From a virus, in IMG/VR virus record IMGVR_UViG_3300046467_000128, positions 1 through 21,131 of that record: 21,131 nucleotides of DNA. One strand, 5' to 3'. The position numbers and the translations under genes were made by a program. The notes under the pieces were generated by a model. The model did no database searches. It was not told the DNA's origin and was given only the letters and a program-made list of their open reading frames with translations. Each line of letters begins with the position of its first letter. The first letter of the stretch is position 1. This document shows, piece after piece, positions 19-20,198 of this stretch.

Positions 19-1346
19 TGGCTAACGAAATTGAAAAGGTAAATTCGATAGATATAGCTGATATTGAAAAAATAATGGGGAGGAGCGATGATGACACGGA
101 CAAGCTTGGTGGTCTTGAGTTTATAGGAGCATTCGTAGACCCATACTCAGGTACACGACTAAGGTCGCAGGGAACAGGTGCTAGATACAATTGCTTTGGT
201 GGTGGCTACCTCTCCGGAGTTGGTTATGCTGATGGTATATACGTTAAGAACCCATTTAATGGTACTAATGCCTCATCAACAGGTGAGCTTGAATTTGGAA
301 AATCACAGGTTGGGGTGGCAAGTAACGGAACTAGAATCATAGGTAGTGGTGGATTTAATGACCCACCTGATAGTTCTGGTCTGCACGATTGGGCTGATGA
401 TGGAAGCGGCCCATATGGTGTTGGCAAGATTGAATATATTTCATCATCTTCTGGTGGTGATGCCGAAGACTTCGGTCAAGTTACAACTTTCACCTTGGGT
501 TATCCCGGAGACACAGGGGAAACAGCAAATGATGAAATGCGTTATACAGGTAATGCTGTAGGTGCTGACGGTGCTACAGGCTTTTACCAAGGTGGCAGTG
601 CAAGGTTCAGCCCCGGCAGAGCATTCACAAACGAGGTATGGAAAATAACTATAGATACATTAAGTGACTCTGAAGACTGGGGTGCTAATCTTGACTACTG
701 GTGGGCTACCCAAACTGGTATGGATGGGTACACAGGAACTCAGGGTACGCTTGATACAAGATGGTTAGTCATGCGTGGAACGAGAAGAGATGTAACTGCT
801 ACAAGTGCAGGTAGTACTACTTCCTATGTAGGAGAAGTAAGATATTTCACATTTGCATCCCCCGGCACAGGTGCTGATTTTGGTGACCCAATTACCCGGT
901 CTGACGGTTACGCCCAATACAGTGGGTGGCAATTATTGCTGGGTTCTAATGGGACTAGAGGTATAGCTATGGGTCGTTCTAACAATAGAGATGTTGCTAG
1001 TGGAGGTTCTCCCGGTACAGGTGGGGATACAGGTGGAGCATGGCAATCTTCGCAAGGAAACACAATACAGTATTTTACAATAGCGTCAACTGGTAATGCC
1101 TCAATGTTTGGTGACATGACCGTAACCTTCTATACAAGTAATGGGCAGGCTTGTAATGGTCAGTATCTAGAATCGTGGGGTGGATATAAGTATAACGCCA
1201 GACCAAACGATACGTCTGGTGGAACACTTCACACTATTGTTGACCAGATATCTATAGCATCTACAGGGAATGCTGTTGTAAATGGCGCACATGCTATATC
1301 AGCTCATATGAATATCGTACAAAATGGAGGAACAGGCAGCAACTAA
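18..1346 (+). CDS. Glycine-rich repeat virion structural protein (candidate)
   Basis: A 442-residue protein rich in Gly, Ser, Thr and Asn with no signal peptide or membrane segment. About five degenerate repeats of 58-76 residues can be seen. Each centres on a block like I-x-Y-F-T-I-A-S-T-G-N-A-x-x-F-G-D, near residues 137-153, 206-224, 272-290, 348-366 and 406-423. Between them lie looser S-N-G-T-R-x-x-x-x-G blocks (near 102 and 310). Similar 'IASTGNAxxFGD' repeat proteins are known from memory in marine phages, usually annotated as virion structural proteins. The regular beta-type spacing suggests a propeller-like or fibrous fold (inference). It overlaps both neighbours by one base (TAATG). 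Head decoration, neck appendage or fibre are all possible. Confidence 0.6.
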   Translation: MANEIEKVNSIDIADIEKIMGRSDDDTDKLGGLEFIGAFVDPYSGTRLRSQGTGARYNCFGGGYLSGVGYADGIYVKNPFNGTNASSTGELEFGKSQVGVASNGTRIIGSGGFNDPPDSSGLHDWADDGSGPYGVGKIEYISSSSGGDAEDFGQVTTFTLGYPGDTGETANDEMRYTGNAVGADGATGFYQGGSARFSPGRAFTNEVWKITIDTLSDSEDWGANLDYWWATQTGMDGYTGTQGTLDTRWLVMRGTRRDVTATSAGSTTSYVGEVRYFTFASPGTGADFGDPITRSDGYAQYSGWQLLLGSNGTRGIAMGRSNNRDVASGGSPGTGGDTGGAWQSSQGNTIQYFTIASTGNASMFGDMTVTFYTSNGQACNGQYLESWGGYKYNARPNDTSGGTLHTIVDQISIASTGNAVVNGAHAISAHMNIVQNGGTGSN

Positions 1347-2200
1347 TGGTTAAAGAATTAGACAAAATACAAGATAAACTTGACAAAATAGAGGACTACG
1401 AATCAGAAGCCTTGGCAATAATCCCAGAGAACATGGGAATTATGGAGACTATGACTCCAGATAAGATAGCCAAGATTAATGAGCGAATGGTAGAAATAGA
1501 CAGGGCAAACAACACTGCTGGTAGAAAAAATACTCAGCATACAAATCAACTAATGACCCTGACAATGCTGACTGATTCCCCCTATAGAAGACTCAGGCAG
1601 TGTCTTGCCCAGATAGAAGATAGAAGAAGTGCTATTGAAAGTAATCTTTATGAATTAAAAAAGGGTGAGATATCTTTAAGGGAACTTGAAAAGAAAGATG
1701 ACGAGTTATCTATCCTTAAAGCTGCGTGGCAAAAGCATTCACTTAGACGTAGCAAGATGTATATTGAAGGTGCTTTAAAAGAACTTGCTGTTTTCCAAGA
1801 AGCGTATGAAGAAATAAGAAAGAACAATAATATCCCAATCTTATGGGATGAAGAAGATGCTGAAATGGATGAGGCACGACACCACATAAGACAGGTGTTC
1901 AGACAGGCATTCAGAGACACCCAGCTAACAGGTCACATTTCTCAAGGTAATGCAGAATATCTGGAACAATGGGGCATTCACCTCCAGACGGCTGAAACAC
2001 TGGTTAAACAGTACCTATATCAAACAGAAGAAATGATTAAGGAAGGCAATATGCCAACTATTGACCACCTTTATAAATTTCTTGATGACTGTGCTGATAT
2101 GTTTGAGAACGAACACATGAAAGTTATGAAGCGTATTGGGCTGGATAAGATTGTTCGTAAAGACCTTCTGTATAAATCTAATATGCACAGGGAAGTTTAA
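1346..2200 (+). CDS. Long helical/coiled-coil protein of unknown function
   Basis: A 284-residue, strongly charged protein that looks almost wholly alpha-helical. Residues 1-20 (KELDKIQDKLDKIEDYESEA) and about 85-165 have the Leu/Ile spacing of coiled coils. The C-terminal third has scattered His, Trp and acidic residues. I recognise no catalytic motif and no close family. It starts inside the TAA of the upstream gene and ends inside the ATG of the next, so it is co-translated with probable structural genes. A structural or assembly role is the simplest guess. Only 6 of its 28 Leu codons are TTA, unlike the TTA-dominated genes downstream, so it may share a different history with the gene before it. 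Confidence 0.6.
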   Translation: MVKELDKIQDKLDKIEDYESEALAIIPENMGIMETMTPDKIAKINERMVEIDRANNTAGRKNTQHTNQLMTLTMLTDSPYRRLRQCLAQIEDRRSAIESNLYELKKGEISLRELEKKDDELSILKAAWQKHSLRRSKMYIEGALKELAVFQEAYEEIRKNNNIPILWDEEDAEMDEARHHIRQVFRQAFRDTQLTGHISQGNAEYLEQWGIHLQTAETLVKQYLYQTEEMIKEGNMPTIDHLYKFLDDCADMFENEHMKVMKRIGLDKIVRKDLLYKSNMHREV

Positions 2201-2475
2201 TGAGTAGTATAGAAACACTAGCCAACATACGTACTACTGACCAATTAAGACCGCTTACTACACATATTGTCAGTTCCTTTTCTACTAACGGAAGTGGAAC
2301 GGGAGCAACATTTGAAGTGATTGTAGACCCTGTTAGTGAGGTAAGAGTAGTTGTTACAAACAAAGGAAGTGGCTACGCTACAAACAATACTATTACTATT
2401 GCTGATGTACATTTAGACGGTAAGGATACTGGAACTTTATCATTTGAAATAGCAACCATATCTAATGTATTTTAG
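2200..2475 (+). CDS. Small beta-rich structural protein (candidate)
   Basis: A 91-residue protein. Residues 31-75 hold two linked blocks, N-G-S-G-T-G-A-T-F-E-V and V-T-N-K-G-S-G-Y-A-T-N-N-T-I-T-I. This Gly-rich beta motif is common, from memory, in phage fibre, neck and whisker proteins. It probably forms a short beta-helical or beta-sandwich unit that trimerises or decorates a larger particle protein (inference). The start codon overlaps the previous stop as TAATG and is preceded by AGGGAAG, a usable Shine-Dalgarno. The stop codon TAG (2473-2475) overlaps a TATAAT-containing 14-mer that may be a promoter for the next gene. Confidence 0.55.
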   Translation: MSSIETLANIRTTDQLRPLTTHIVSSFSTNGSGTGATFEVIVDPVSEVRVVVTNKGSGYATNNTITIADVHLDGKDTGTLSFEIATISNVF

Positions 2476-2487
2476 AGTATAATAATA
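2474..2487 (+). promoter_or_regulatory. Candidate promoter, shared 14-mer copy 1
   Basis: The 14 bases AGAGTATAATAATA are repeated exactly at 4337-4350. TATAAT (2478-2483) matches a -10 box, but 17 bases upstream there is no -35 (ACCATA). This copy lies in one of the few true intergenic gaps (2476-2525), ahead of the gene at 2526. It may depend on the phage sigma factor or an activator (inference). Confidence 0.45.
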
Positions 2488-2525
2488 TATAAAGAGTTTA
2501 ATTAGATAGGAGTTAAGGAGAAGAT

Positions 2526-2765
2526 ATGACTGAAGTAAATTTACAGGATGATTTAAATGCAGTAAATGATCAATTAACTAAGTTAGTTGAAGAGTTGAAT
2601 AAACTTAATACTGCACGAGAACAGGTAGTTCAACAGATACAGAATCTAAACGGGGTAGCGATGTATCTACGAGGTAAATTACCTGAAGATGTAGAGGCTC
2701 CCATTATAGATATGGAAGAGTCTACAGATGATTTAGAACGGAGTGCTGAATACCCTACAACTTAA
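2526..2765 (+). CDS. Small coiled-coil protein of unknown function
   Basis: A 79-residue acidic protein. Residues 5-48 form a clear heptad-type coiled coil (Leu, Val and Ile at regular a/d spacing), followed by N-L-N-G-V-A-M-Y-L-R-G and an acidic, probably disordered tail. The start is well supported by AAGGAG seven bases upstream of the ATG. It is the first gene after the candidate promoter at 2474 and directly precedes the connector gene. No known family is recognised. Small coiled-coil proteins in this position often serve as assembly or scaffolding partners, but nothing in the sequence shows that here. Confidence 0.6.
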   Translation: MTEVNLQDDLNAVNDQLTKLVEELNKLNTAREQVVQQIQNLNGVAMYLRGKLPEDVEAPIIDMEESTDDLERSAEYPTT

Positions 2766-2779
2766 AATGAGGATAACTA

Positions 2780-3895
2780 ATGGCTACATCTGCTGGAGCA
2801 GAATTTACAAAAGTATTTGCGTATAACGGAAGTTCCTATACTGACGTTACTTTAGAAACACAGTCTCCAGCAGGAACAGCTTTTTCTGTTCTAGGGGGTA
2901 CTAGCCACTTTCTATATTTAGGACACAGTGCTAAATTTGATATGGCTGTCTTTGATGTAGATACTGCGGGTAGTATCGGGGCTTTAACATGGGAATTTAG
3001 TAACGGTACTAATTGGACAGAATTTGTTCCAGCATCAGCTAGACTCCAAGTAGACCCGGATGATAATGAAGGAACTGCATACGACTTCTCTAAAGATGGG
3101 GCAGAAATATTTCCCCCAAATGTGATGTCAACTTGGGCAACATTAACTGTAAATAGTTCAAATATATACTGGGTTAGAGTCTCTACTGCAAGTGTTGCTG
3201 TAGCCCCTACGATTAAACGTATACAAATGCGTCCGTATGCTGCATATTGTACTACAAAAGATGTCTTTGAACTATTACAGTTAGGTACTATAACAAGTAC
3301 AACTGATTTTACATCTTCCACTACTCCTACACAAAGTACTGTAGAACAATTTATTATGGAAGCTCAATCGATTATAGATTTTCAAACTCGGAAAGCATGG
3401 CGACCACAATATATAGCAAATGAATATCATTCATTTAATTTGAATGGGTTTCAGTTAGATAAACCTGATCCATATAAAATATTAAGTTTACAGATTTGGA
3501 ATGGAGCTAATTGGGATAATAGAACTCAAGGTCGTAAAAGCGACTTTTTCTTAGTATCCGATACAGGTTTAATACATTTTTCTAGGTATTTTTTATTACC
3601 TGCTAGGTTTACGTCCTATAATGCTCCTGTTTGGAGATGGGGTGGTGGAGAATTTACAATGCCTGTAAAAGTAACTTATTTAGCCGGTAGGGATATACAC
3701 ACAGATTCTCGACAAGGTGGACTTGTATCAGATATATGTAAAAAATTAGCCGCTATTGATGTTATGCGAAGTTCTGATTTCGGTAATTTAGTTGTAAGTG
3801 GTTCAGATCGTGTCCAATTAGGTCAAAAGATTGAAGGGTGGAATATGGAAATCGAGGACAGATTAGACTCATTACGAGCATTTGAGGTGTTTTAA
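2780..3895 (+). CDS. Head-tail connector / neck protein (candidate) with N-terminal beta domain
   Basis: A 371-residue protein of two parts. Residues 1-150 are beta-rich with aromatic strands (WEFSNGTNW near 71-79). The C-terminal part opens with Y-C-T-T-K-D-V-F-E-L-L-Q-L (156-168) and a helix with IIDFQTRKAW (about 198-207). That pattern resembles gp6/gp15-type head-tail connector proteins, where short helices pack into a ring at the portal. Its place just before tail terminator and tube candidates fits. The start has GAGGA seven bases upstream. Families with only the connector domain are usually 100-200 residues, so the N-terminal half looks like an added decoration or fibre-binding domain (inference). 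The match is from pattern only. Confidence 0.5.
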   Translation: MATSAGAEFTKVFAYNGSSYTDVTLETQSPAGTAFSVLGGTSHFLYLGHSAKFDMAVFDVDTAGSIGALTWEFSNGTNWTEFVPASARLQVDPDDNEGTAYDFSKDGAEIFPPNVMSTWATLTVNSSNIYWVRVSTASVAVAPTIKRIQMRPYAAYCTTKDVFELLQLGTITSTTDFTSSTTPTQSTVEQFIMEAQSIIDFQTRKAWRPQYIANEYHSFNLNGFQLDKPDPYKILSLQIWNGANWDNRTQGRKSDFFLVSDTGLIHFSRYFLLPARFTSYNAPVWRWGGGEFTMPVKVTYLAGRDIHTDSRQGGLVSDICKKLAAIDVMRSSDFGNLVVSGSDRVQLGQKIEGWNMEIEDRLDSLRAFEVF

Positions 3896-4329
3896 TGCCT
3901 GAACCTTTACCCGTTACAGTTCTTCTAGCTGATTTAGATGCTCAATGGAATGGTAGTAATGTAACTGAACCAGCTTTTATAGAAGTAAATAAAGCTAATG
4001 AACCACTAAGATTTAATTTAAATACTGGTGATCAAGTTATAGGACGGTCTGGAAGTCCAGCGTTTGATGAAGCACCTATCGGAAATTGGAAATACGGTAA
4101 TCGTACATACAATATTGAATTAGAATTATTTACTAATAATAGTCGTCAGCGTTTATATGATTTAATGGCGGAAATAAGACGACTGTGCCACTCAAGAATG
4201 CATAGTTTAACTAATTTTCAACGTCAGGAATTTATGAGTTTTAACGAAGAACAAAGTGAACAAATTAATATTTGGACAGGTACGGTAGATATACAGCTAG
4301 TCAATAATGCCGTCTTATTAGAAACTTAG
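3895..4329 (+). CDS. Tail terminator / tail completion protein (candidate)
   Basis: A 144-residue protein lying between the connector candidate and the tail tube, the usual place for the protein that caps the tube and joins it to the head. It has an alternating strand and helix pattern with a central helix (RQRLYDLMAEIRRL, about 86-99) and a C-terminal strand pair (IWTGTVDIQLVNNAVLLE). That fits the small alpha/beta fold of lambda gpU-type terminators, though I cannot show homology. It overlaps the upstream stop by one base (TAATG), with GAGGTG upstream as a possible ribosome site. Leu codons are 10 of 15 TTA, typical of this genome. Assignment is mainly by position. Confidence 0.45.
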   Translation: MPEPLPVTVLLADLDAQWNGSNVTEPAFIEVNKANEPLRFNLNTGDQVIGRSGSPAFDEAPIGNWKYGNRTYNIELELFTNNSRQRLYDLMAEIRRLCHSRMHSLTNFQRQEFMSFNEEQSEQINIWTGTVDIQLVNNAVLLET

Positions 4330-4336
4330 TTGTTTC

Positions 4337-4350
4337 AGAGTATAATAATA
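4337..4350 (+). promoter_or_regulatory. Candidate promoter, shared 14-mer copy 2
   Basis: An exact second copy of AGAGTATAATAATA lies in the 40-base gap before the tail tube gene. TATAAT is at 4341-4346. The hexamer 17 bases upstream (TTAGAA, 4318-4323) is a poor -35. Tail tube protein is needed in many copies per virion, so an extra promoter here makes sense (inference). Confidence 0.5.
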
Positions 4351-4369
4351 AAGAATATGGAGGCTTAAC

Positions 4370-6103
4370 ATGGCTGTATATAGAAGTGATCAAGCACAAT
4401 TAACATTTGCAACAGAAGCTGCTCAAGGTGGTGACCCTGAAATGATAGAGGGAACTGCTGGAACAGGTGATACTACGATTAACGCCGCTTTTGAAGCGGG
4501 TTCTCGTTCCATTACTGTCGCAAGTGCTTCTAACTTTACAGTTGGGGATATGATTCGTATTGGAACTGTTCTTAGCACGGCTGCTAATACCGTTACTGAA
4601 CACGAAGTACGTAGACTTGAATCAATTGATAGTACAACATTTCTTTTAGATAGACCCACAGCATTTTATCATGCAAGTGGTCAGGAAGTTAAAGAACTAA
4701 CGGCTCTTGGCGGTGATGCTACTAGAAACGATGATGGTAAATATGTCACATTTGTACCGGGTGTATACGAAACTGTAGATACTCCCGATCCACAAATGTC
4801 GATTGAGGGGAAAAGGTTTTTAGGAACAGCCTCTAAACGTAATTGGTCAGTCGCATATCCCGGTCAACAAACTCTAACTGGATCAGTCGGCGGCATGATA
4901 TTGCTTAACGGATGGCCTTTAAGATTTCCTATAGGAACAGTAACTACAACACCATCAGCTGTAGCAACAGATACTATCCTATTAAATGGGGCAGCTAAAA
5001 AAGGAGACATATATATTATCTGCGATGGGGGTGATTACGGTAACATAGCTGTTAATGATTATATTCAAATTATAGAAGCAGACAATACAAAGTCTGAAGT
5101 TAGGAAAGTTGTCCATATTGTAAGTCAAACACTTAAATTAAATGCTCCCTTACAATATGCCCATGCAGATGACGCAGTTGTAAATGAAGTTTCAGGAAGT
5201 GCTTATTACACACATGTTATTGAAGAAGCAGTTGATTTAGATACAGTATCTTGGCATGTTCATATGAAAGATAGTGGAGAAACTACGGCAAATGATTTTG
5301 ATAGAAGATATGTAGGAGGAATGATTGGTTCTTCAACTATATCTGCCGAAGAAGGTGGGTTAGTTACAATGTCGTGGGATAGTGTAAACTTCCTTGACAT
5401 GGTACATAATCAAAATAATCAAACAACAGTAAGCACTAATTTATATAGTGGTGCATCAGTTACGGCTAATATGCCTAGATATGCATTAATGCAAGCGATT
5501 GATACAAATGATGTGGGAGAACCCGGTAAAAATGATAATACAGGATTTCCAACGACTGAACCATATTACTTTTCTAATGGGTCTGTTAAATTTTATGGAC
5601 AAGAAGTTGCTAGATTAAGAAGCTTTTCCCTTTCTATAAGTAATGGAGAGGAACCTCGTTACTATATTGGTCAACAAGGTAATAGACATCGTGGCCCTTA
5701 TGAAATACGAGAAGGAGCAAGAGAGTATTCGTTAACCGCTTCTCTTGGATTACCTGATTCGGTAGCGGCTAGTTCAAATTCTCAGGCAGGAGCTTTAGAA
5801 CTATTTAAGCAGTTACTATTAGAAGGTCATTACGGTGGTACAACTGCGGCTGCTGCAAGAGCAGGTTTTACAGTTACAATGACCTTTCAACGAGGTACTA
5901 ACGATAAAATTACAATAGATATTCCCGGTAGTTCAACGGCAGGTACGCCAACTGCTGGGGCAGCAAAATTAAATGAACAGGGTGTATTTATAAACTCTGC
6001 TCCTCATACTTTAGGGACGGATAATCCATTCCAAGTAGATGCAGATATGATATTCAGAAGTTTGAAAATCACAATTGAGGATAGTGTTCCAGTATACCCG
6101 TAA
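4370..6103 (+). CDS. Major tail (tube) protein with duplicated inserted domains
   Basis: A 577-residue protein. The core recalls tail tube proteins: a beta-rich body, then 'YYFSNGSVKFYGQEVA' (about residues 398-413) and R-E-G-A-R-E-Y-S-L-T-A-S-L in the C-terminal half. Length is well above the 200-350 residues usual for tube proteins. The excess is partly explained by two copies of one domain, near residues 46-110 and 197-275. Each has a V-G-D-M-I or V-N-D-Y-I block, then a (E/S)EVR block, then a Leu-Asp/Asn-(R/A)-P block with H-A and a closing EV. The start has GGAGG eight bases upstream. The next genes are the frameshifted chaperone pair and the tape measure, which is the standard order and supports the call. 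Confidence 0.7.
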   Translation: MAVYRSDQAQLTFATEAAQGGDPEMIEGTAGTGDTTINAAFEAGSRSITVASASNFTVGDMIRIGTVLSTAANTVTEHEVRRLESIDSTTFLLDRPTAFYHASGQEVKELTALGGDATRNDDGKYVTFVPGVYETVDTPDPQMSIEGKRFLGTASKRNWSVAYPGQQTLTGSVGGMILLNGWPLRFPIGTVTTTPSAVATDTILLNGAAKKGDIYIICDGGDYGNIAVNDYIQIIEADNTKSEVRKVVHIVSQTLKLNAPLQYAHADDAVVNEVSGSAYYTHVIEEAVDLDTVSWHVHMKDSGETTANDFDRRYVGGMIGSSTISAEEGGLVTMSWDSVNFLDMVHNQNNQTTVSTNLYSGASVTANMPRYALMQAIDTNDVGEPGKNDNTGFPTTEPYYFSNGSVKFYGQEVARLRSFSLSISNGEEPRYYIGQQGNRHRGPYEIREGAREYSLTASLGLPDSVAASSNSQAGALELFKQLLLEGHYGGTTAAAARAGFTVTMTFQRGTNDKITIDIPGSSTAGTPTAGAAKLNEQGVFINSAPHTLGTDNPFQVDADMIFRSLKITIEDSVPVYP

Positions 6104-6116
6104 ATAAGGAGACTAT

Positions 6117-6491
6117 ATGGCAACCAAGAAAAGCGCAGGTGGATTCGATTTAAGTAAATATCAGATAGGGACTACTCCTTACGAGACAGAAGTTGTAATA
6201 GAAGATACAGGAGATTCATTCCCTGTTACTGTTCGTCCAATGTCGTGGAGTAAACGAAATCAATTAATTTCTAAATGCTTGAATTGGTCAAATGATGGCA
6301 ATACAAGTTTTAACGGTGATGTATACGTAAGAGAATGCTTAAAGGAAATGATTGTAGAGGCTCCTTGGGGACGTACAACCGAAGCCTTTTTAACAACAAT
6401 TGACGGTAGATTAGGAACTGCTTTAGAAGCTCTTGTTCCAGAAGCATTTGGGCAAGATGGATTAAAGGTCGATGATGTAAAAAAAGGGTAA
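6117..6491 (+). CDS. Tail assembly chaperone, first frame (gpG-like)
   Basis: A 124-residue protein directly between the tail tube and the tape measure, where long-tailed phages encode the chaperone that coats the tape measure before tube polymerisation. Visible features are P-M-S-W-S-K-R-N-Q (about 42-50), an R-E-C-L-K-E-M-I-V-E-A-P-W-G helix and L-G-T-A-L-E-A-L-V-P-E-A-F-G near residues 98-111. The pattern is familiar from phage tail chaperone genes. AAGGAG sits seven bases before the ATG. The gene ends in GTA AAA AAA GGG TAA. The run of As forms a canonical slippery heptamer from which a -1 shift enters the next frame, as in lambda gpG/gpGT. Confidence 0.7.
   Translation: MATKKSAGGFDLSKYQIGTTPYETEVVIEDTGDSFPVTVRPMSWSKRNQLISKCLNWSNDGNTSFNGDVYVRECLKEMIVEAPWGRTTEAFLTTIDGRLGTALEALVPEAFGQDGLKVDDVKKG
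6479..6485 (+). other. Programmed -1 ribosomal frameshift site (A AAA AAA)
   Basis: In the frame of the gene starting at 6117 the codons read GTA AAA AAA GGG TAA, so the heptamer has the X-XXY-YYZ layout. Slipping back one base gives AGG GTA ATG ACC and continues in the frame of 6491-6733, making a 205-residue fusion (123 + 82). A perfect dyad, TCTGCGA-GGAG-TCGCAGA (6499-6505 with 6510-6516), starts 13 bases downstream and could stimulate slippage. A stop codon (6489-6491) lies immediately after the site in the zero frame. Confidence 0.65.
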
Positions 6492-6733
6492 TGACCTTTC
6501 TGCGAGGAGTCGCAGATTTATCTTTGGAAGAGGGTCAACTATACTATTATTGGCTTACGATGGTGACCCTACTAAAAGAAGGAATACCGTGGGAAGCTCT
6601 AGTTGAATTCACAAGTGATGAAATTTCTCTTATTATGGGAATAAATGCTGCCATACATCAACAAGAAAATGATGAGCAGATGAAAAATATGGCAAAAACT
6701 AATGTTCCCTTATCTTCTATGGGTGGATTTTAA
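6491..6733 (+). CDS. Tail assembly chaperone, second frame (T region of gpGT-like fusion)
   Basis: The open frame is 80 codons from an ATG whose A is the last base of the upstream stop. It contains L-E-E-G-Q-L-Y-Y-Y-W-L-T-M (12-24), an aromatic helix, and F-T-S-D-E-I-S-L-I-M-G, then a polar C-terminus. Lambda-type T regions bind the tape measure or tube subunits and are made only as frameshift extensions. Here a -1 shift at 6479-6485 would do exactly that. Separate initiation at 6491 is also possible, since AAGGG lies just upstream, though only three bases from the ATG. I therefore treat it as the second exon-like part of the fusion, possibly also made alone. Confidence 0.65.
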   Translation: MTFLRGVADLSLEEGQLYYYWLTMVTLLKEGIPWEALVEFTSDEISLIMGINAAIHQQENDEQMKNMAKTNVPLSSMGGF

Positions 6734-12517: not shown

Positions 12518-12702
12518 TGCCAGATGTAACGGTAAGTTTTACAGATGCTCAATGGGCTAGAATTGTTGCTGCAACTTCCAATATAAAAAAAGTTGGGGAG
12601 GCGGGAGATGTTGATGCCACCTATTTAGCAGCAAAATGGAAAGCGCAAGTAGAAAAATGGGTTCTTGATTTTGAGAGTGTTCAAGCCGTATCTGATTTTT
12701 AA
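12517..12702 (+). CDS. Small tail-associated protein of unknown function
   Basis: A 61-residue protein starting V-T-V-S-F-T-D-A-Q-W-A-R-I-V-A-A, then Y-L-A-A-K-W-K-A-Q-V-E-K-W-V-L-D-F-E. Small proteins with this 'V-T-x-x-x-x-A-Q-W-x-R-x-x-A-A' opening are, from memory, common after phage tail fibre genes, with no assigned function. GAGGAGGA six bases upstream of the ATG is among the strongest ribosome sites in the window, and the start also overlaps the fibre stop (TAATG). This suggests it is made in quantity together with the fibre (inference). A helper for fibre assembly or an unrelated small protein are both possible. Confidence 0.55.
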   Translation: MPDVTVSFTDAQWARIVAATSNIKKVGEAGDVDATYLAAKWKAQVEKWVLDFESVQAVSDF

Positions 12703-13097
12703 TGCGTAAGGTTGGGTGGCAAGATAGGACAATTAAACGGATCGCTATATTTAAGCAAGAACACCCGTTAATGACCTTACAGCAAATCGCTGAACACTTT
12801 GAAGTATCCAGACCTTATATATACAAAGTATTAAAAAATAATGGTGAACCTACTAATAATAGACTAGTTCGTAGAAAAGCTTATTATTGTACGCATTGCC
12901 AAGATTTACTTCCCTCAAAACGTAAATTTTGTTCTGATAAATGTTCCTTTAATTATCGCCATGTAAAGGTATCTTGTGCTATTTGTCATGTACCTTTCTA
13001 TCGAAAAAAAGCGGTTTTACGAGGTAAAGCTAAATTAGGCCAAATATACATCTATTGTAGTATGAAATGTATGTATAAACGAAGCCAATTAGTTTGA
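12702..13097 (+). CDS. Helix-turn-helix protein with two zinc-binding ribbons; candidate regulator
   Basis: A 131-residue basic protein. Residues 24-46 (T-L-Q-Q-I-A-E-H-F-E-V-S-R-P-Y-I-Y-K-V-L) form a standard helix-turn-helix with a recognition helix starting at S-R-P. Two Cys clusters follow: C63-x2-C66-x10-C77-x3-C81, and C92-x2-C95-x23-C119-x3-C123, each able to hold one zinc ion. No nuclease motif is seen. It could be a transcription regulator, or the DNA-binding remnant of a mobile nuclease. It is the last gene before the structural/replication junction, and its stop codon lies within the -35 box of the hsp20 promoter, so control of that promoter is plausible (inference). It lacks a Shine-Dalgarno and overlaps the previous stop (TAATG). 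Confidence 0.6.
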   Translation: MRKVGWQDRTIKRIAIFKQEHPLMTLQQIAEHFEVSRPYIYKVLKNNGEPTNNRLVRRKAYYCTHCQDLLPSKRKFCSDKCSFNYRHVKVSCAICHVPFYRKKAVLRGKAKLGQIYIYCSMKCMYKRSQLV

Positions 13098-13122
13098 CAG
13101 AAAATGTAAATTTTCGTATAAT
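13094..13122 (+). promoter_or_regulatory. Consensus sigma70 promoter for hsp20 and the replication operon
   Basis: TTGACA (13094-13099) and TATAAT (13117-13122) match both bacterial consensus boxes exactly, with the optimal 17-base spacer. The -35 overlaps the TGA stop of the upstream gene (13095-13097). Transcription would begin near 13129 and give a leader of about 45 bases. This is the only two-box consensus promoter I found in the window, and it sits where structural genes give way to replication genes. Confidence 0.8.
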
Positions 13123-13133
13123 AAGGAGTAAGT

Positions 13134-13152
13134 TTGATACAGATGGTATCAA
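13134..13152 (+). promoter_or_regulatory. Dyad / leader hairpin downstream of the hsp20 promoter (candidate operator)
   Basis: TTGATAC (13134-13140) and GTATCAA (13146-13152) are perfect inverted 7-mers around AGATG. The site falls about 5-24 bases after the expected start of transcription. It could be a repressor operator, perhaps for the adjacent helix-turn-helix protein, or an RNA hairpin at the mRNA 5' end. It does not cover the AGGAG ribosome site, so a simple RNA-thermometer role is not supported. Confidence 0.5.
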
Positions 13153-13173
13153 CTTTAGTGATAGGAGAATAAA

Positions 13174-13593
13174 ATGACTAATATAAAAACTTATGACCCC
13201 ATTTTCGGTAGTGTAGCAGATTTTGTAGGTTCTAAATGGTTTAATTTTGCAGGTAACCAGCCTGATGCTTTTCCAATGGATATTATAGAACGATCTGATG
13301 AGTATGAGATACGGGTTGTCGTTCCCGGAGCTAATAAAGACGGTCTTGCCGTAGAGGTAGAAGGAGATGTTCTACATATTAATGTAGTAGGTAATAATAA
13401 TAATCCTGAAGATACAAAATATATTTATAAAGGACTACGACCCTTTACATATAAGCGACAAATAAGTAATTTAGCTAAGTACAATATAGTAATAGATGAT
13501 ATTAAATCCACTTATAGGAGTGGTATTCTTAGTATCACCATGCCACGGGCAGAAGAAGCCCAACCAAAATCTATATCTGTACAAGTGGAATGA
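13174..13593 (+). CDS. hsp20: Hsp20 small heat-shock protein (alpha-crystallin family)
   Basis: A 139-residue protein with an alpha-crystallin domain at about 31-126: F-P-M-D-I-I-E-R-S-D-E-Y-E-I-R-V-V-V-P-G-A, a central V-E-V-E-G-D-V-L-H-I-N strand, and the family's G-x-L signature as Y-R-S-G117-I-L119-S-I-T-M-P. A C-terminal I134-S-V136 matches the I-x-I/V tail that links dimers into oligomers. Small heat-shock proteins hold unfolding proteins in solution without ATP. Phage homologues are known, especially in cyanophages, where a role in particle assembly or stress protection has been suggested. AGGAG lies seven bases before the ATG. It is the first gene behind the consensus promoter, so it is probably made early and strongly (inference). 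Confidence 0.9.
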   Translation: MTNIKTYDPIFGSVADFVGSKWFNFAGNQPDAFPMDIIERSDEYEIRVVVPGANKDGLAVEVEGDVLHINVVGNNNNPEDTKYIYKGLRPFTYKRQISNLAKYNIVIDDIKSTYRSGILSITMPRAEEAQPKSISVQVE

Positions 13594-14042
13594 GTAAATC
13601 TTTAGAAGATTATATTTCATTTTTGCCCAGAGAAGGGCAGTACACTATAGATATTGCACGGGAGGAGTCTCAAGAGCCTCTTTCCGTGCTGTCCGCTATC
13701 CATTGGGTAGCTCATCACGAAGAAGTTGAAGAAACTTTAGGACGACTTTTAATACATGAAGTAAATGCTATTTTAAAACGTTTAAATAATAGCAATAATT
13801 CTACACTCACGGCAAAATCAGCAGCTTCTTTAAGTTTAACACCGGATAAATGTTTAGACATATGTTTTAGTGATTGGGAAGATTATGGTGAGATTCAAAA
13901 AGCTACTCGGACTTTAGAACGTTTTCTTGGTAGAAAGGTTTATTTACGACCTAATCATCAAAAATGGCCTAGTAAGAAGTCCCTTATTGTTCGTCTACAC
14001 GAAGATTCAGAATATAGGCGAACTAATATTAAAGAGGGATAA
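13590..14042 (+). CDS. Hypothetical protein between hsp20 and the sigma factor
   Basis: A 150-residue protein with an ATGA overlap onto the hsp20 stop. It is mostly helical, with H-W-V-A-H-H-E-E-V-E-E-T-L-G-R-L (about 38-53), a low-complexity N-N-S-N-N-S spacer near 66-71, and a C-terminal T-R-T-L-E-R-F-L-G-R-K-V-Y-L-R-P block that looks alpha/beta. No family is recognised. Its place between a chaperone and a sigma factor, ahead of replication genes, suggests an early regulatory or host-takeover role, but nothing in the sequence proves it. The AAGTGGA before the start is a weak ribosome site. Confidence 0.6.
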   Translation: MSKSLEDYISFLPREGQYTIDIAREESQEPLSVLSAIHWVAHHEEVEETLGRLLIHEVNAILKRLNNSNNSTLTAKSAASLSLTPDKCLDICFSDWEDYGEIQKATRTLERFLGRKVYLRPNHQKWPSKKSLIVRLHEDSEYRRTNIKEG

Positions 14043-14043
14043 A

Positions 14044-14565
14044 ATGATCATCGATAACGCTTTAGTAGCTCAATGGGAACCGAAAATTCAAAAGATGTCC
14101 TCGTCATCGTTTGTAATTGGGATGGATCGAGAAGATATTGCACAGGAATTACGAATTGCTTTAATCAAAGCTGCTCGTAAGTTTGATGAATCTCGTGGAG
14201 TATCTTTCCACACATATTTACACACAGCTATGGTTAATACAATTCGGACACTTATTTCACAAGCCCAACGTCATCTTAATACAACTAGTTTGGATAAAAC
14301 TTTCGCTGATTCAGAAATGTTACCCCTAGAAATTGTGGAGGCATTATCGGACACAACAGATTTCGATTCTAATTTGTTTGCTGATGACTTACTTGGAACA
14401 GATAACATAACAGATCAAGAACGTCAGTTCGTATTATTACGAGGTGAGGGGTTAACTATGAGTGAAATTACTGAAGACTTAGGTGAATCCGCATACAAAA
14501 TTCGACAAGCTCTTAGGGATAAATTAGAAGATGCAATTGCCCTCAAAGAACCCACAAGAGTATAA
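14044..14565 (+). CDS. Phage-encoded RNA polymerase sigma factor
   Basis: A 173-residue protein. Region 2 spans about 26-76: D-R-E-D-I-A-Q-E-L-R-I-A-L (core-binding helix), then K-F-D-E-S-R-G-V-S-F-H-T-Y-L-H-T-A, the -10 recognition segment. Region 4 spans about 120-165: T-D-Q-E-R-Q-F-V-L-L-R and a helix-turn-helix T-M-S-E-I-T-E-D-L-G-E-S-A-Y-K-I-R. There is no region 1 or 3, so it has the two-domain build of group 4 or phage sigma factors. It should direct host RNA polymerase to phage promoters. The frame stays open further upstream to 13927, but GAGG six bases ahead of 14044 and the conserved layout favour this start. It lies two bases after the previous gene. Confidence 0.8.
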   Translation: MIIDNALVAQWEPKIQKMSSSSFVIGMDREDIAQELRIALIKAARKFDESRGVSFHTYLHTAMVNTIRTLISQAQRHLNTTSLDKTFADSEMLPLEIVEALSDTTDFDSNLFADDLLGTDNITDQERQFVLLRGEGLTMSEITEDLGESAYKIRQALRDKLEDAIALKEPTRV

Positions 14566-15016: not shown

Positions 15017-15212
15017 GGTAAATTTGTCTGAAGATGTGAATAAATATAAAATTATACAGAGATTCCCTGATTCGGGGGAACTAAAGTTAATCGGTACGTT
15101 TCTTACGTATGAAACAGCAGTTGCAACCGTTGACACGTTAAAGAGTGATGGCTTATACTATTACGTATATGGAGATAGTAATAGAATTTTATATGCGAGT
15201 GAGGAGCAATGA
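14949..15212 (+). CDS. Small hypothetical protein before the helicase
   Basis: An 87-residue protein overlapping the end of the previous gene by 68 bases. The N-terminal 20 residues are basic (K-K-R-N-S-M-L-G-R-L-L-K). The rest is alternating beta and helix (K-Y-K-I-I-Q-R-F, then Y-E-T-A-V-A-T-V-D-T-L-K-S-D-G-L-Y-Y-Y-V-Y). The overlap is unusually long here, so the true start may be the ATG at 14967 or a TTG near 15026 just after the upstream stop and TAAGG. The start at 14949 has AAGGAT upstream, and the C-terminal coding frame is clear. No function is recognised. It ends in an ATGA overlap with the helicase. Confidence 0.55.
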   Translation: MKKRNSMLGRLLKSGERANLFSKVNLSEDVNKYKIIQRFPDSGELKLIGTFLTYETAVATVDTLKSDGLYYYVYGDSNRILYASEEQ

Positions 15213-16456
15213 GTAGTTACGAATACATAGAATCAGCGTTAGTTTTCGGTATAAATGATACTACGTCATTACGAAAATTTAAATATACAGCAAATGATTT
15301 TGCCAAACATGGTGACGCATATAAATTTACATTAGAGTATTACGATACACATGGAGAATTTCCTAATGAGGGAGTACTACAGGATAGTTTTCCAACCTTA
15401 GATTATGAGGCTAGGGCCACTAATTTTGAATTTGCTTTGGACACATTCAAATCCCAAGTACTTCAACGTAAAATTATTAAAACTATTCAAGGGCAAAAAG
15501 CTTTAGTTGAAGATAATCCTCATAAGGCTCTAACTAATATTATGGCTGGGTTAGCAGAAGTCGAAATTGATGCGGATGATTCGGTTATGTATTACGATAG
15601 TGGTACATTGGATCGTTTTGAAGAATGGCAATCTAGAATGAAGAAAAGACAACTAGGGGATGGTATGATCGGTATTCCCACTAGTTTTAAGACATTAAAT
15701 GCTACTGGAGTAGGGTGGCAAGCAGGAGAATTAATATCAGTATTTGCTCGACCCACAATAGGTAAGACATGGATGTGTGTTCATGCTGCTGCAACAGCGG
15801 TGATGCAGGGATTTAAAACACTATTAATTTCTACAGAAATGTCAGCAAGGGCAATTAATCTTAGAACAGATGTAGTTATGGCAAATATGATGGGGTATAA
15901 ATTATCTCATAGTGCTTTAAGAAGAGGGGAAGAAATTGAACGAGACACTTACCAGAAATTTTTACAGGAATCGAATAATAGACGTTTACTAGTCTGTGAT
16001 CATATTGAAGGACAGTCAGGAATATCTTTAGAAAGTATTGCAGGATTAATACGTAAGCATACTCCTGATTTTGTTGTAGTTGATGGAGTATATCTAATAT
16101 CAACAAGTAATTCTAAATCTGCTATGTGGGAACAATCACATGCTCTTTTTTACGGGCTTAAAAATTTATGTACATCTATGGATACTTGTATCTTTGTTTC
16201 TACACAAGCTAATCGTGATGCTGCAAATATGTTTTCGCCTCCTAGGGCGGATCAAGTAGCTTTTGGAGATGCTCTTATCCGGGCATCAGATGTGGTATTA
16301 GCTATGTGTGCTATGGAAGATGATAAAAATAAACGATTAATACAATTTCAGAAATATAGAGATGATGATGTGGGTATTGATCTAGCAGTAGTACAATGGA
16401 ATATAAATAATGGCGAAATATATGAAGATCAAGATTACGATTGGGGAGATTTTTAA
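15209..16456 (+). CDS. dnaB: DnaB-type replicative DNA helicase
   Basis: A 415-residue RecA-fold helicase that would unwind DNA ahead of the polymerase as a hexamer. An N-terminal helical domain (about 1-120) resembles the DnaB N-domain. The ATPase domain has Walker A A-R-P-T-I-G185-K186-T187, the catalytic glutamate in S-T-E210-M-S, Walker B D-F-V-V-V-D292, the STQANR sensor (331-336), and Q-K-Y-R384 as the likely arginine finger. The first residue of Walker A is Ala rather than the usual Gly. The C-terminus is acidic and ends in Phe (Y-D-W-G-D-F), recalling T7 gp4. GAGGAG upstream and an ATGA overlap support the start. The primase follows two genes on, so helicase and primase are separate proteins here. 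Confidence 0.9.
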   Translation: MSSYEYIESALVFGINDTTSLRKFKYTANDFAKHGDAYKFTLEYYDTHGEFPNEGVLQDSFPTLDYEARATNFEFALDTFKSQVLQRKIIKTIQGQKALVEDNPHKALTNIMAGLAEVEIDADDSVMYYDSGTLDRFEEWQSRMKKRQLGDGMIGIPTSFKTLNATGVGWQAGELISVFARPTIGKTWMCVHAAATAVMQGFKTLLISTEMSARAINLRTDVVMANMMGYKLSHSALRRGEEIERDTYQKFLQESNNRRLLVCDHIEGQSGISLESIAGLIRKHTPDFVVVDGVYLISTSNSKSAMWEQSHALFYGLKNLCTSMDTCIFVSTQANRDAANMFSPPRADQVAFGDALIRASDVVLAMCAMEDDKNKRLIQFQKYRDDDVGIDLAVVQWNINNGEIYEDQDYDWGDF

Positions 16457-16468
16457 AAGGAGGATAAG

Positions 16469-16666
16469 ATGAGTTTACTAGATTTGTTCAGAACAAATGA
16501 TGCTAACCCAGATCAAGTAGTTGTGAAAACAGCTAAGAGTAAAGGGATTGGTACGCCTAGTGTTCGCATAACAGCGGGTGACATCATGCGAGGAAATTGC
16601 ATTGATGAGAACGGTTATGTCAATGAAGTAGTTCTTTTTTTACGCAAGAATAAAACGGATAGATAA
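16469..16666 (+). CDS. Small protein between helicase and primase
   Basis: A 65-residue protein of unknown function. The sequence is M-S-L-L-D-L-F-R, then a polar stretch, I-R-I-T-A-G-D-I-M-R-G-N and V-V-L-F-L-R-K-N-K near the end. AAAGGAGG seven bases before the ATG is the best Shine-Dalgarno match in the window, so it is probably well translated. It is wedged between two core replisome genes and overlaps the primase start (TAATG). An accessory subunit joining helicase and primase is an attractive idea, but the sequence shows no motif that proves it. Confidence 0.6.
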   Translation: MSLLDLFRTNDANPDQVVVKTAKSKGIGTPSVRITAGDIMRGNCIDENGYVNEVVLFLRKNKTDR

Positions 16667-17517
16667 TGGATTGGACATCTCTATTATTGGAACACGGAAT
16701 TGATGTTCCTGTAGAGAGAACACAATTTAATATACCTTGTCCCTTCCACCAAGACACAATTGCTTCGTGTTCAATTAATACTGAACAAGGAGTTTGGATT
16801 TGTTTTGCGGGATGTGGACAAGGTAAATTATCTTACTTCTTTTATAAACTAACAGGCAAACCTCTAGAAGAAAAAGAGATTATATTATCAGCTTTAAATT
16901 TCTCTTTATTCGATGACCTAGAGAAAAAGTTGGATGATAATCCAGTTATTCCACCCGATTCGTTAACCAATATTCCTAATAATCATTGGATTTATCGAAG
17001 AGGGTTTTCTCCTACAGTAATTGAACAATGGGATTGTTCTATAAATCAGTATGGGGATTTTGTATTACCTGTTTTTGATAAACAAAAGAATCCTTTAGGA
17101 TGGATTACTCGTAGACAACAAGCTACTCCAAAATATTTATACTCTAAAGGGTTTAAAAAATCCCACGCTTTATTTGGTATTCATAGATTACCAAAACAGC
17201 TTGATCGTTTATACGTAACAGAAGGAGCTTTAGATACGATTTGGTTAGATGCTCATGGTTACCCTAGTGTAGCTCTTTTAGGGGCTATTTTATCTTCAAC
17301 CCAAAATACATTAATTAGTACTTTACATCCCTCTGAAGTTGTGCTATGTTTAGATAATGATCAAGCAGGACAAAGAGGAATCGAAAAAGCATTACTTGAC
17401 ATGCAAGATAAATTTTTAGTATCATATATTAAGATTCCAAAAGATTCTAAAGATGTACAAGATATAAGAAACGCAAATCAATTACATAAAATATTAGCAA
17501 ATAAAACATATTGGTAA
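16666..17517 (+). CDS. DNA primase (zinc-binding + Toprim)
   Basis: A 283-residue primase that would make RNA primers for lagging-strand synthesis. A zinc-binding module at 25-50 shows C25-P-F-H28, then C46-F-A-G-C50, as in DnaG/T7 gp4 type CHC2 domains. A Toprim domain follows: V-T-E186-G-A-L-D, V-V-L-C-L-D230-N-D232-Q-A-G, and a third acidic cluster K-D-S-K-D-V-Q-D near 259-266. These residues bind the catalytic Mg2+. It lacks the helicase-binding and helicase parts of longer DnaG and gp4 proteins, and the helicase is the separate gene at 15209. It overlaps its upstream neighbour by one base (TAATG). Confidence 0.85.
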   Translation: MDWTSLLLEHGIDVPVERTQFNIPCPFHQDTIASCSINTEQGVWICFAGCGQGKLSYFFYKLTGKPLEEKEIILSALNFSLFDDLEKKLDDNPVIPPDSLTNIPNNHWIYRRGFSPTVIEQWDCSINQYGDFVLPVFDKQKNPLGWITRRQQATPKYLYSKGFKKSHALFGIHRLPKQLDRLYVTEGALDTIWLDAHGYPSVALLGAILSSTQNTLISTLHPSEVVLCLDNDQAGQRGIEKALLDMQDKFLVSYIKIPKDSKDVQDIRNANQLHKILANKTYW

Positions 17518-17525
17518 AATACCAA
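17511..17525 (+). promoter_or_regulatory. Hairpin next to the SSB-candidate ribosome site
   Basis: TTGGTA (17511-17516) and TACCAA (17520-17525) form a perfect 6-bp stem with an AAA loop. It covers the primase stop codon (17515-17517). Its last two bases are the first two of the AAGGAG ribosome site (17524-17529) of the gene at 17539. It could modulate translation of that gene (inference). Confidence 0.45.
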
Positions 17526-17538
17526 GGAGAAATATTCA

Positions 17539-18228
17539 ATGAGTGGTATCTCTAGAATACAGCAACTTAGACAGGAAAATAAATATCCTGTAAATAATGG
17601 CCCCGCTAACAGAGAACTTTGGTTTAAAGATGGTGACCAAGCTTTTCTTTCAGCAGTAGCAACAGGTAAAGATAATGATACTCTGCTAGACGAAGTATAT
17701 CTTTATGTATACAGGGTAGGAAATCGTTGGGTATCTGTGCTAAAAGACGAGTCTATAGACATAACGGAAGTTCCATCTGATACACGCCCTTCCCATAAAT
17801 TCGCATTTTGGGCATACGTTCACGAGGTTATACATCCTGTAAAGCGTGTAGATACATGGGAAGAAGTAGAAGGGCCGGGGGGACGAAAAATGTTTAAGGA
17901 AACAATTAATGATTTCCGTATTATTCCCCTAGGTTTTGGTAGAAGTGATTATATTTGGAACCAGTTAGTAGATGTTTATAGTGATTGGGGTCAATTAGAT
18001 AAAGGGGTTATCCGTATTAAAAGAACTGGATCAGGAGCATATGATACTTCTTATGCTATCACTGCAACACCACGAGATACGGAGATTCCTGAAAATAAAT
18101 TAACTGAGGTCACTGACCTTCCTGCTATTAAGCAATACTACTTAGAAAGATATAGTGATGTACCTACAACAGAGTCAACTGGATTCGATAAATCTAGTTC
18201 CGAATCCAAAGCTAACGATTTATTTTAA
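17539..18228 (+). CDS. Single-stranded DNA-binding protein (candidate)
   Basis: A 229-residue protein. It begins with a basic/polar arm, then N-R-E-L-W-F-K-D-G-D-Q-A-F-L-S (24-38), V-Y-L-Y-V-Y-R, R-P-S-H-K-F-A-F-W-A-Y-V (83-94) and R-I-I-P-L-G-F-G-R-S-D-Y. From memory these blocks match proteins annotated as ssDNA-binding in aquatic phages, between primase and polymerase. The aromatic- and basic-rich strands suit an OB-like fold. The C-terminus is Ser/acidic and ends N-D-L-F, resembling the D-x-(P/L)-F tails by which SSB and T7 gp2.5 recruit partners. AAGGAG lies nine bases before the ATG, next to a hairpin. No conserved zinc site of T4 gp32 type is seen. The call rests on remembered resemblance and position. 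Confidence 0.6.
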   Translation: MSGISRIQQLRQENKYPVNNGPANRELWFKDGDQAFLSAVATGKDNDTLLDEVYLYVYRVGNRWVSVLKDESIDITEVPSDTRPSHKFAFWAYVHEVIHPVKRVDTWEEVEGPGGRKMFKETINDFRIIPLGFGRSDYIWNQLVDVYSDWGQLDKGVIRIKRTGSGAYDTSYAITATPRDTEIPENKLTEVTDLPAIKQYYLERYSDVPTTESTGFDKSSSESKANDLF

Positions 18229-20198
18229 TGTCAATTGTTACAACCGCAGAGGATTTTTCTGCTGTTTGTGAACATCTAAAACAATTTGAAACTTTGGTCG
18301 TAGACGTTGAAACAAATGGTTTAGACGCTTTTGGTATAAATCAATTATGCGGGGTTGGTGTAGCTACTAGCCCCAATGATTCCTACTATTTCCCTTTTAG
18401 ACATCAAACAGGCGAAAACTTACCCCTAGTTTTTCATAAGTCATTAGTAGATTTATTATCAAACTGTTCAACACTTATTGGATATAACTTAAAGTTTGAT
18501 CTACATTTTTTAGTAAGTGACGGATTAGTCATATCCGAACAAACTTTAATTGATGTTATTGTAATGGTTCGGATGACTGAACACGCTGATATCAAAAATT
18601 TGGGTTTAACAGATACTCTTATTCGTAGCTATGGAGCAGAATGGGGAAAATACGATATAGAGACAAAAAAACTTCTAAGTAAAAATAAGTGGCGTAAGGA
18701 TTTTTCTTTAGCACCTCCCGAAATTCTTGGCCCTTATTGTAAGAAAGATGTTGAAATGACCTATAAACTTTATGAGGATAGGTTAAAACAACTAAAGAAA
18801 TCTAAACAACTTCCCTTATTACAACAACAATGTGCTTTGACAACTGTTCTATATAAAATGGAACGTAGAGGAATTACTGTTGATACACAATATGCTAAAA
18901 AAACTAATGATCGTTTAATTGAACGGTTAGAAGAGATTACAAAAGAGATTCATGAAATAGCGGAAGAGGAATTTAATATAAGTAGTCCACGACAAATCGG
19001 TGTAGCTTTTGCTACATTCGGAATTAAATCACCCACTAAAACCCCGAAGGGGGCCGATTCATGGGGTGAAGAAGCATTAGTACAGATTAATCACCCGATG
19101 GCAGGATTAATTAGGCAATATAGAACATTATTAAAATTACAGTCTACTTACATTGAACCTTACTTAGAGACTTATGAAGATACTATGCATACATCTTTTT
19201 GTAATTGGGGAGCCGCCACAGGAAGATTATCAAGTAAAGAACCTAATTTACAGAATATACCACGTAATCACTTTAAATTAAATTATGGTGATTTAACTGA
19301 AAATGAATTACTTGAAACAAAAAGTCGTATCGCTGCAACAATGGCTTCTAGGGGACAAAATTCGGAAACTATTGAACTATCTAAAGAAGCATTACAAACA
19401 TGGGGCTTTATGGGGGATGAATCATTTGATGAAACTTCAGATACACAAATTGCAATGCGTAGATTATTTATTCCACGTAAAGGGTACACGTTAATTGGGT
19501 TTGATTACTCACAAATGGAAGTTAGAGTGTTTCTTTCATACCTCCAAAATAAAACAATTGATACATTATTAAATAAGAGTGATGTAGATTTTCATGGGGA
19601 AGCAAGTAAATTAGCCTTCAATACAACAGAAGATGCGGATGATTATAAATTCTATAGACAGATGGCAAAAGCAATAACCTTTGGTACTATCTATGGTATA
19701 GGACGCAATAAATTGGCTTTACAACTAGGAACTACTCCCTATGAAGCAGGACAGTATAAAAAACGCTATTTCGACGGGCTAGAGGGTTCTAAAGAGTTCT
19801 TTGATAAAGTAGTAGAAACAGTTGAAGATCGAGGATGGATTAGAAATAGATATGGACGAGTATATAAGATAAATAAAGACTTTGCTTATAAGGGTGTAAA
19901 TTACTTAGTTCAAGGTACTAGTGCAGATATTATGAGTGAAAGAATGATAGCTGTAGATAAATATCTAGATGACACAAAAAGCAATATGTTATTACAAGTA
20001 CATGATGAGATTATTTGTGAAATTCATAAGGATGAGTTAGCTACCATTCCATTTGAGATTAAGGCATTATTAGAGATAAATTCTTTAGATATACCCTTAC
20101 AAGTTGATATGGAAATTTGTTCTCCATCATGGGCTACAAAAAAAGATTTTGTCTTACCTACAGATGAAGTCGAAAATTATATAGATTGGGGTAATTAA
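18228..20198 (+). CDS. polA: Family A DNA polymerase with 3'-5' exonuclease
   Basis: A 656-residue replicative polymerase. The exonuclease domain carries D26-V-E28 (Exo I), N87-L-K-F-D91 (Exo II) and Y170-C-K-K-D174 (Exo III), so proofreading should work. There is no 5' nuclease. Polymerase motifs: T-G-R-L-S-S before N-L-Q-N-I-P (340-345); motif A D426-Y-S-Q-M-E-V-R; O-helix R477-Q-M-A-K481-A-I-T-F485-G-T-I-Y489-G; motif C V-H-D593-E. F485 aligns with E. coli F762, a residue correlated with lytic phage lifestyle. Between NLQNIP and motif A there are 81 residues against 25 in E. coli Pol I, so about 56 residues are inserted. The start overlaps the SSB-candidate stop (TAATG) without a Shine-Dalgarno. 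Confidence 0.95.
   Translation: MSIVTTAEDFSAVCEHLKQFETLVVDVETNGLDAFGINQLCGVGVATSPNDSYYFPFRHQTGENLPLVFHKSLVDLLSNCSTLIGYNLKFDLHFLVSDGLVISEQTLIDVIVMVRMTEHADIKNLGLTDTLIRSYGAEWGKYDIETKKLLSKNKWRKDFSLAPPEILGPYCKKDVEMTYKLYEDRLKQLKKSKQLPLLQQQCALTTVLYKMERRGITVDTQYAKKTNDRLIERLEEITKEIHEIAEEEFNISSPRQIGVAFATFGIKSPTKTPKGADSWGEEALVQINHPMAGLIRQYRTLLKLQSTYIEPYLETYEDTMHTSFCNWGAATGRLSSKEPNLQNIPRNHFKLNYGDLTENELLETKSRIAATMASRGQNSETIELSKEALQTWGFMGDESFDETSDTQIAMRRLFIPRKGYTLIGFDYSQMEVRVFLSYLQNKTIDTLLNKSDVDFHGEASKLAFNTTEDADDYKFYRQMAKAITFGTIYGIGRNKLALQLGTTPYEAGQYKKRYFDGLEGSKEFFDKVVETVEDRGWIRNRYGRVYKINKDFAYKGVNYLVQGTSADIMSERMIAVDKYLDDTKSNMLLQVHDEIICEIHKDELATIPFEIKALLEINSLDIPLQVDMEICSPSWATKKDFVLPTDEVENYIDWGN

Follow-up and report, generated by a model that had tools for sequence, protein, structure and literature searches.

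The best explanation we can offer for this region is that an uncultured, apparently marine phage expresses its sigma-factor and replication genes from a promoter, P1, suited to the housekeeping RNA polymerase holoenzyme of its host. We consider this explanation probable when taken as a whole, its other parts being two further promoters (P2 and P3), a phage sigma factor (SIG), and a hairpin at the start of the message. It draws on P1 and its conservation, on the constraint at P2 and P3, on the family membership of SIG, on a motif, TAGTATAATA, and on the recurrence of leader hairpins, all obtained from the 21,131-nucleotide stretch of viral DNA analyzed here (the window) and from its comparison with relatives. 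From this evidence we infer both the use of P1–P3 by the host polymerase and its timing. The features concerned are as follows.

2474–2485, plus strand: -10-only motif (GTATAATAA core), upstream of ORF79.
4337–4348, plus strand: -10-only motif (GTATAATAA core), upstream of a 577-aa gene in the virion-gene region.
12702–13097, plus strand: gene for an HTH and Cys-rich (zinc-type) protein, the conserved neighbor upstream of P1.
13094–13122, plus strand: predicted promoter P1, TTGACA-17-TATAAT, conserved in relatives; the HTH/zinc gene ends within its -35 box (stop codon TGA, 13095–13097).
13100–13115, no strand assigned: 6+4+6 dyad GAAAATGTAAATTTTC, which fills the P1 spacer and was not mentioned in the initial annotation.
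13113–13124, plus strand: TTCGTATAATAA, an 11/12 match to the phage-wide motif TTAGTATAATAA that overlaps the P1 -10 box; a possible dual promoter.
13130–13155, plus strand: predicted leader hairpin with the dyad TTGATAC-AGATG-GTATCAA (13134–13152); relatives have hairpins of other sequence at this place.
13163–13167, plus strand: AGGAG, the ribosome-binding site of hsp20 as predicted from sequence, outside the dyad.
13174–13593, plus strand: hsp20 (alpha-crystallin; PF00011, 3.6e-13), an optional first gene.
13590–14042, plus strand: ORF150, an optional second gene with no assigned function, encoding a conserved protein between P1 and the sigma gene.
14044–14565, plus strand: SIG, sigma-70-family factor of the phage, from TIGR02937, PF04542, fold, and relatives.
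15130–15159, plus strand: predicted promoter P2, TTGACA-18-TATACT, inside ORF87 and ahead of the helicase gene (15209).
15209–20198, plus strand: genes for a DnaB-type helicase, a primase, an SSB-like protein, and PolA.
17396–17425, plus strand: predicted promoter P3, TTGACA-18-TATCAT, inside the primase gene and ahead of the SSB and polymerase genes.

The initial annotation had placed an exact consensus promoter at P1, heading hsp20 and the replication genes. The promoter itself stands. With a -35 of TTGACA, a -10 of TATAAT, and a spacer of 17 nt (16–18 being required of a sigma-70, or RpoD, promoter), P1 is the sole 12/12 match on either strand of the 21-kb window, for which chance predicts 0.02 (Markov-1 simulation) to 0.04 (base composition); for its own intergenic stretch, ∼6e-5 exact matches are expected. 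Moreover, P1 is not a product of chance, because it is conserved in relatives. These were collected with PolA, which gave 80 loci (mostly 56–77% identical), with SIG, which gave another 80, and with HSP20, which gave 20; the sets overlap. An exact TTGACA lies 17–18 nt ahead of a -10-like hexamer at all 12 loci where hsp20 comes first and at five of the six scored where ORF150 does, and the sixth (L102) also has TTGACA-17-TATAAT, given a different placement of the start codon. P1 matches the consensus at 12/12 positions in L007 and L105, and many relatives have an extended -10 (TGn) at this place. The -35 of P1 is not universal across the relatives compared, since TTGACA is rare at loci where SIG lies directly behind the HTH gene (3/50). 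One group of these SIG-first loci has TGATATAAT in place of TTGACA. Upstream of the TGATATAAT promoter in L047, L049, L061, L063, L068, and L076 lies an 11-bp palindrome-like ACGAAATTCGT, common to the group with small changes. The dyad within the P1 spacer was considered separately as an operator and rejected, as it is not kept in L007.

The rest of the original claim needs revision, because the constant gene behind P1 is SIG rather than hsp20 and because two further conserved host-type promoters inside the operon had been missed. Downstream of P1 the order is hsp20, ORF150, SIG, two small ORFs, helicase, a 65-aa ORF, primase, the SSB-like gene, and PolA; upstream are tail genes (tape measure and tail fiber) and a 61-aa ORF, followed by the HTH/Cys-rich gene. 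This gene order is conserved in relatives. Among 90 distinct SIG loci, 60 are arranged HTH-SIG, 8 HTH-ORF150-SIG, 7 HTH-HSP20-SIG, and 5 HTH-HSP20-ORF150-SIG. Thus, SIG is the constant member, and hsp20 and ORF150 are optional additions. The product of hsp20 scores well over the PF00011 cut-off (49.9 vs 20.8 bits), and the remark that a small heat-shock gene at the head of the operon is unusual proved apt: the gene is an optional insertion, found at 12 of the 80 loci where the HTH gene and SIG are present together. ORF150, used as a lone query, found no match in viral_contigs. It is plausible that the operon led by P1 is early, a term qualified by the location in some relatives of a dense sigma-70 promoter cluster elsewhere in the genome than this operon. 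Many TTGACA-17/18-TATAAT-like promoters are clustered at 18832–29071 of G003, at 415–6616 of G004, and in the G009 and G010 records, and these clusters are probably early regions, away from the replication module.

The TTGACA sites of P2 and P3 (at 15130 and 17396) recur at matching places in relatives. In the primase gene, the -35, TG, and -10 bases of P3 take ranks 1–5 of 280 among the most constrained third positions (49 clusters), and these scores far exceed the highest found in the six other genes scored. No comparable constrained cluster appears in helicase, SSB, polymerase, or three small genes; HTH, HSP20, ORF150, SIG, and ORF61 were left out of this scoring. In ORF87, three of the four top constrained sites of 71 fall on P2 (14 clusters). 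Because codon alignments show this constraint at synonymous positions, the conservation of P2 and P3 is not protein-driven. At 17396, GAC is nearly always the codon used for Asp, the codon ahead of it has T in its third position regardless of the amino acid, and xTA codons (for Val, Ile, or Leu) supply the TA of the P3 -10 box; in 13 primase clusters TGC replaces GAC, giving a different -35 there. We read P2 and P3 as two further conserved host-type promoters within the operon, with their constraint established by comparison and their start sites predicted.

The main gap in the initial annotation was SIG. Judged by its sequence, the product of 14044–14565 is a sigma-70-family factor, scoring 57.6 bits against a curated TIGR02937 cut-off of 42.9. 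Its region 2, the part for -10 recognition and core binding, matches PF04542 at 1e-11, and its structure model resembles sigma domain 2 bound to -10 DNA (3ugp, Z 8.6, rmsd 2.2 over 68). The match of region 4, for -35 recognition, to PF04545 is below the cut-off (16.4 vs 24.1 bits), and the alignment of SIG to sigma-E is nearly full-length. SIG was found in 10 of 10 relatives' records, every copy over the TIGR02937 cut-off. The SIG genes of L044 and L048 (6121–6813) have an insertion of ∼37 residues within the region-4-like part.

A second class of promoter-like sequence accompanies SIG in these genomes. In 11 records, TAGTATAATA is present in 32 coding-strand copies and 3 on the other strand, and 400 permuted 10-mers gave a mean of 2.7 and a maximum of 14; in 47 records, AGTATAATAA occurs 74 times and its reversed control 10 times. 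The motif, as (T)TAGTATAATA, lies in intergenic stretches ahead of virion genes, with no -35 match; in G001, copies precede genes adjoining a portal gene, and the motif also precedes a gene for a minor head protein. The G001 positions of TAGTATAATA are 5788, 31827, 34020, and 38670; in the window, AGAGTATAATAA occurs at 2477 and 4340. This -10-only class also has a purine preference 19–20 nt upstream of TATAAT, which may reflect nearby stop codons. The T4-type late motif TATAAATA was in no excess over its reversed control in 11 records, and PF02916 (gp45-type sliding clamp) matched nowhere, control records included, so that this search had no positive control. On co-occurrence, SIG is the obvious candidate for the reader of TAGTATAATA, and we infer that it would read this motif. 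Furthermore, P1 could be dual in the window and in L007, since it matches TTAGTATAATAA at 11/12 positions in the window and at 12/12 in L007.

Two other accounts of these promoters deserve consideration. The overlap of P1 with GTATAATAA, which in L007 is the full TTTAGTATAATAA, could mean that P1 is mainly a late-type promoter for the phage sigma, with TTGACA secondary and the operon also expressed late. However, other lineages keep TTGACA with -10 boxes that are unlike the motif (TACAAT, TAGACT, and TAAGAT), and we regard this account as unlikely. In the case of P2 and P3, both sites are coding and their role as promoters is predicted from sequence, so the constraint might be of some other kind acting on the nucleotides of coding DNA. 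This we find very unlikely, because the constraint falls precisely on TTGAC, TG, and the -10 box, whose spacing is fixed, and leaves the spacer codons free. Promoters for the host polymerase are thus our preferred reading of all three sites.

The leader dyad was reported to occur in its full form only once in the window, which is correct: the half-site TTGATAC recurs at 751, 5499, 8179, 18880, 19558, and 21078, and GTATCAA nowhere else. By itself, the dyad is unremarkable. The window holds 13 perfect 7-bp dyads with 3- to 8-nt spacers, against 10.8 ± 4.5 expected, which is chance level for such DNA, and the probability of one such dyad in the 51-nt leader is P = 0.02. What recurs is structure, as hairpins of unrelated sequence are found in the leaders of most lineages (16 leaders, Fisher p ∼1e-6, a value to be read with the relatedness of the leaders, L128 and L129 being near copies). 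The hairpin of the window is a modest one (z -1.3 to -1.6), and the SD region there pairs weakly with early codons. The initial annotation had instead proposed an operator for the HTH/zinc protein encoded upstream, at which a repressor could block promoter clearance; as considered here, the protein would bind it as a dimer. The dyad does sit just after the expected start, and the HTH gene is a constant upstream neighbor. The HTH_11 match of its product is below the cut-off and its Cys-rich part weakly matches an HNH family, and the structure model places an HTH, predicted with fair confidence, at residues 1–55, resembling the HTHs of repressors (FapR, Z 7.5, rmsd 1.7 over 51). Yet lineages that keep the recognition helix (SRQYI[YH]KVLK type) have dyads with no common sequence, even the window and L007, whose proteins are 65% identical; the window has just one copy of the full dyad, and many relatives with the HTH gene have no dyad at that place. 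This operator reading is, on this evidence, improbable. Because the dyad sequence varies by lineage where the recognition helix is kept, and because a hairpin recurs in place, a hairpin formed at the 5′ end of the message appears to be the better reading; it would act as RNA, although these comparisons do not distinguish an RNA role from a DNA one. Small heat-shock genes are classic targets of RNA thermometers, and a hairpin upstream of hsp20 invites the idea of a thermometer or other translation switch for that gene. But the SD (AGGAG) lies outside the dyad and similar hairpins precede sigma genes where hsp20 is missing, which makes such a switch highly improbable; in Rfam the leader had no match, described thermometer families included.

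With the 5′ mRNA hairpin as the preferred reading of the leader, these elements suggest the following program. The host housekeeping polymerase would transcribe from P1 an operon comprising hsp20, ORF150, SIG, the two small ORFs, helicase, primase, SSB, and PolA, and P2, ahead of helicase, and P3, ahead of SSB and PolA, would boost expression of the downstream replication genes. The hairpin following the start would most likely protect or tune the transcript, leaving the ribosome-binding site of hsp20 outside. SIG would then probably redirect RNA polymerase to the -10-only promoters (TTAGTATAATAA) ahead of virion genes. In its fullest form, this becomes a two-step program in a widespread uncultured phage family: host polymerase, acting at conserved promoters of which two are hidden in genes, makes a new phage sigma and a replisome; the sigma then reads its -10-only promoters; and the first promoter of the window and of L007 is a hybrid for both sigmas, creating a self-sustaining switch. 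We put this full form forward tentatively, as a possibility that is less probable than its alternatives taken together.

The family is known from metagenomes. Searches of genome_contigs for a host returned no relative of SIG and only distant matches of PolA (23–36%), and deposited phages had no DNA match to the region. Our work offers a transcription plan that can be tested in a large, apparently marine phage family lacking close cultured relatives within the collection searched. The plan names predicted host-read promoters, a likely switch gene, and, for virion genes, a candidate motif. More broadly, synonymous-site constraint across metagenomic relatives can expose promoters hidden in phage coding genes. 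The most interesting point is whether SIG reads TAGTATAATA.

It is useful to compare this region with known systems. No description of this phage family or motif was found in the open papers searched, nor of TTAGTATAATAA as a promoter for any other phage sigma; the arrangement itself, in which a host-type promoter leads an operon of phage sigma and replication genes, is of a known kind. Small heat-shock proteins are carried by cyanophages (PMC3827213), and hsp20 by the marine methylophage Melnitz (PMC9004378). The window shares with these marine phages the possession of hsp20, but here the gene opens a sigma and replication operon and is optional within the family. P1 resembles consensus sigma-70 (RpoD) promoters in its TTGACA, 17-nt spacer, and TATAAT, to which relatives often add the extended -10 TG; it differs in that the preceding gene's stop codon falls within its -35 box and in being predicted from sequence. 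Like the TIGR02937 sigma-70-family factors (ECF and SigH-like), SIG scores over the family cut-off in a match spanning region 2 to region 4, its best solved relatives being sigma-E, FliA, and SigH; by contrast, its matches among deposited phages are ≤33% identical, and it forms a separate phage family. Finally, if SIG does read TAGTATAATA, the system would resemble T4 late transcription, in which late promoters with only a -10 element are read by gp55, a small sigma of the phage. The two differ in that the motif here is TAGTATAATA rather than the TATAAAT(A) of T4 and in that SIG has a region-4-like part.
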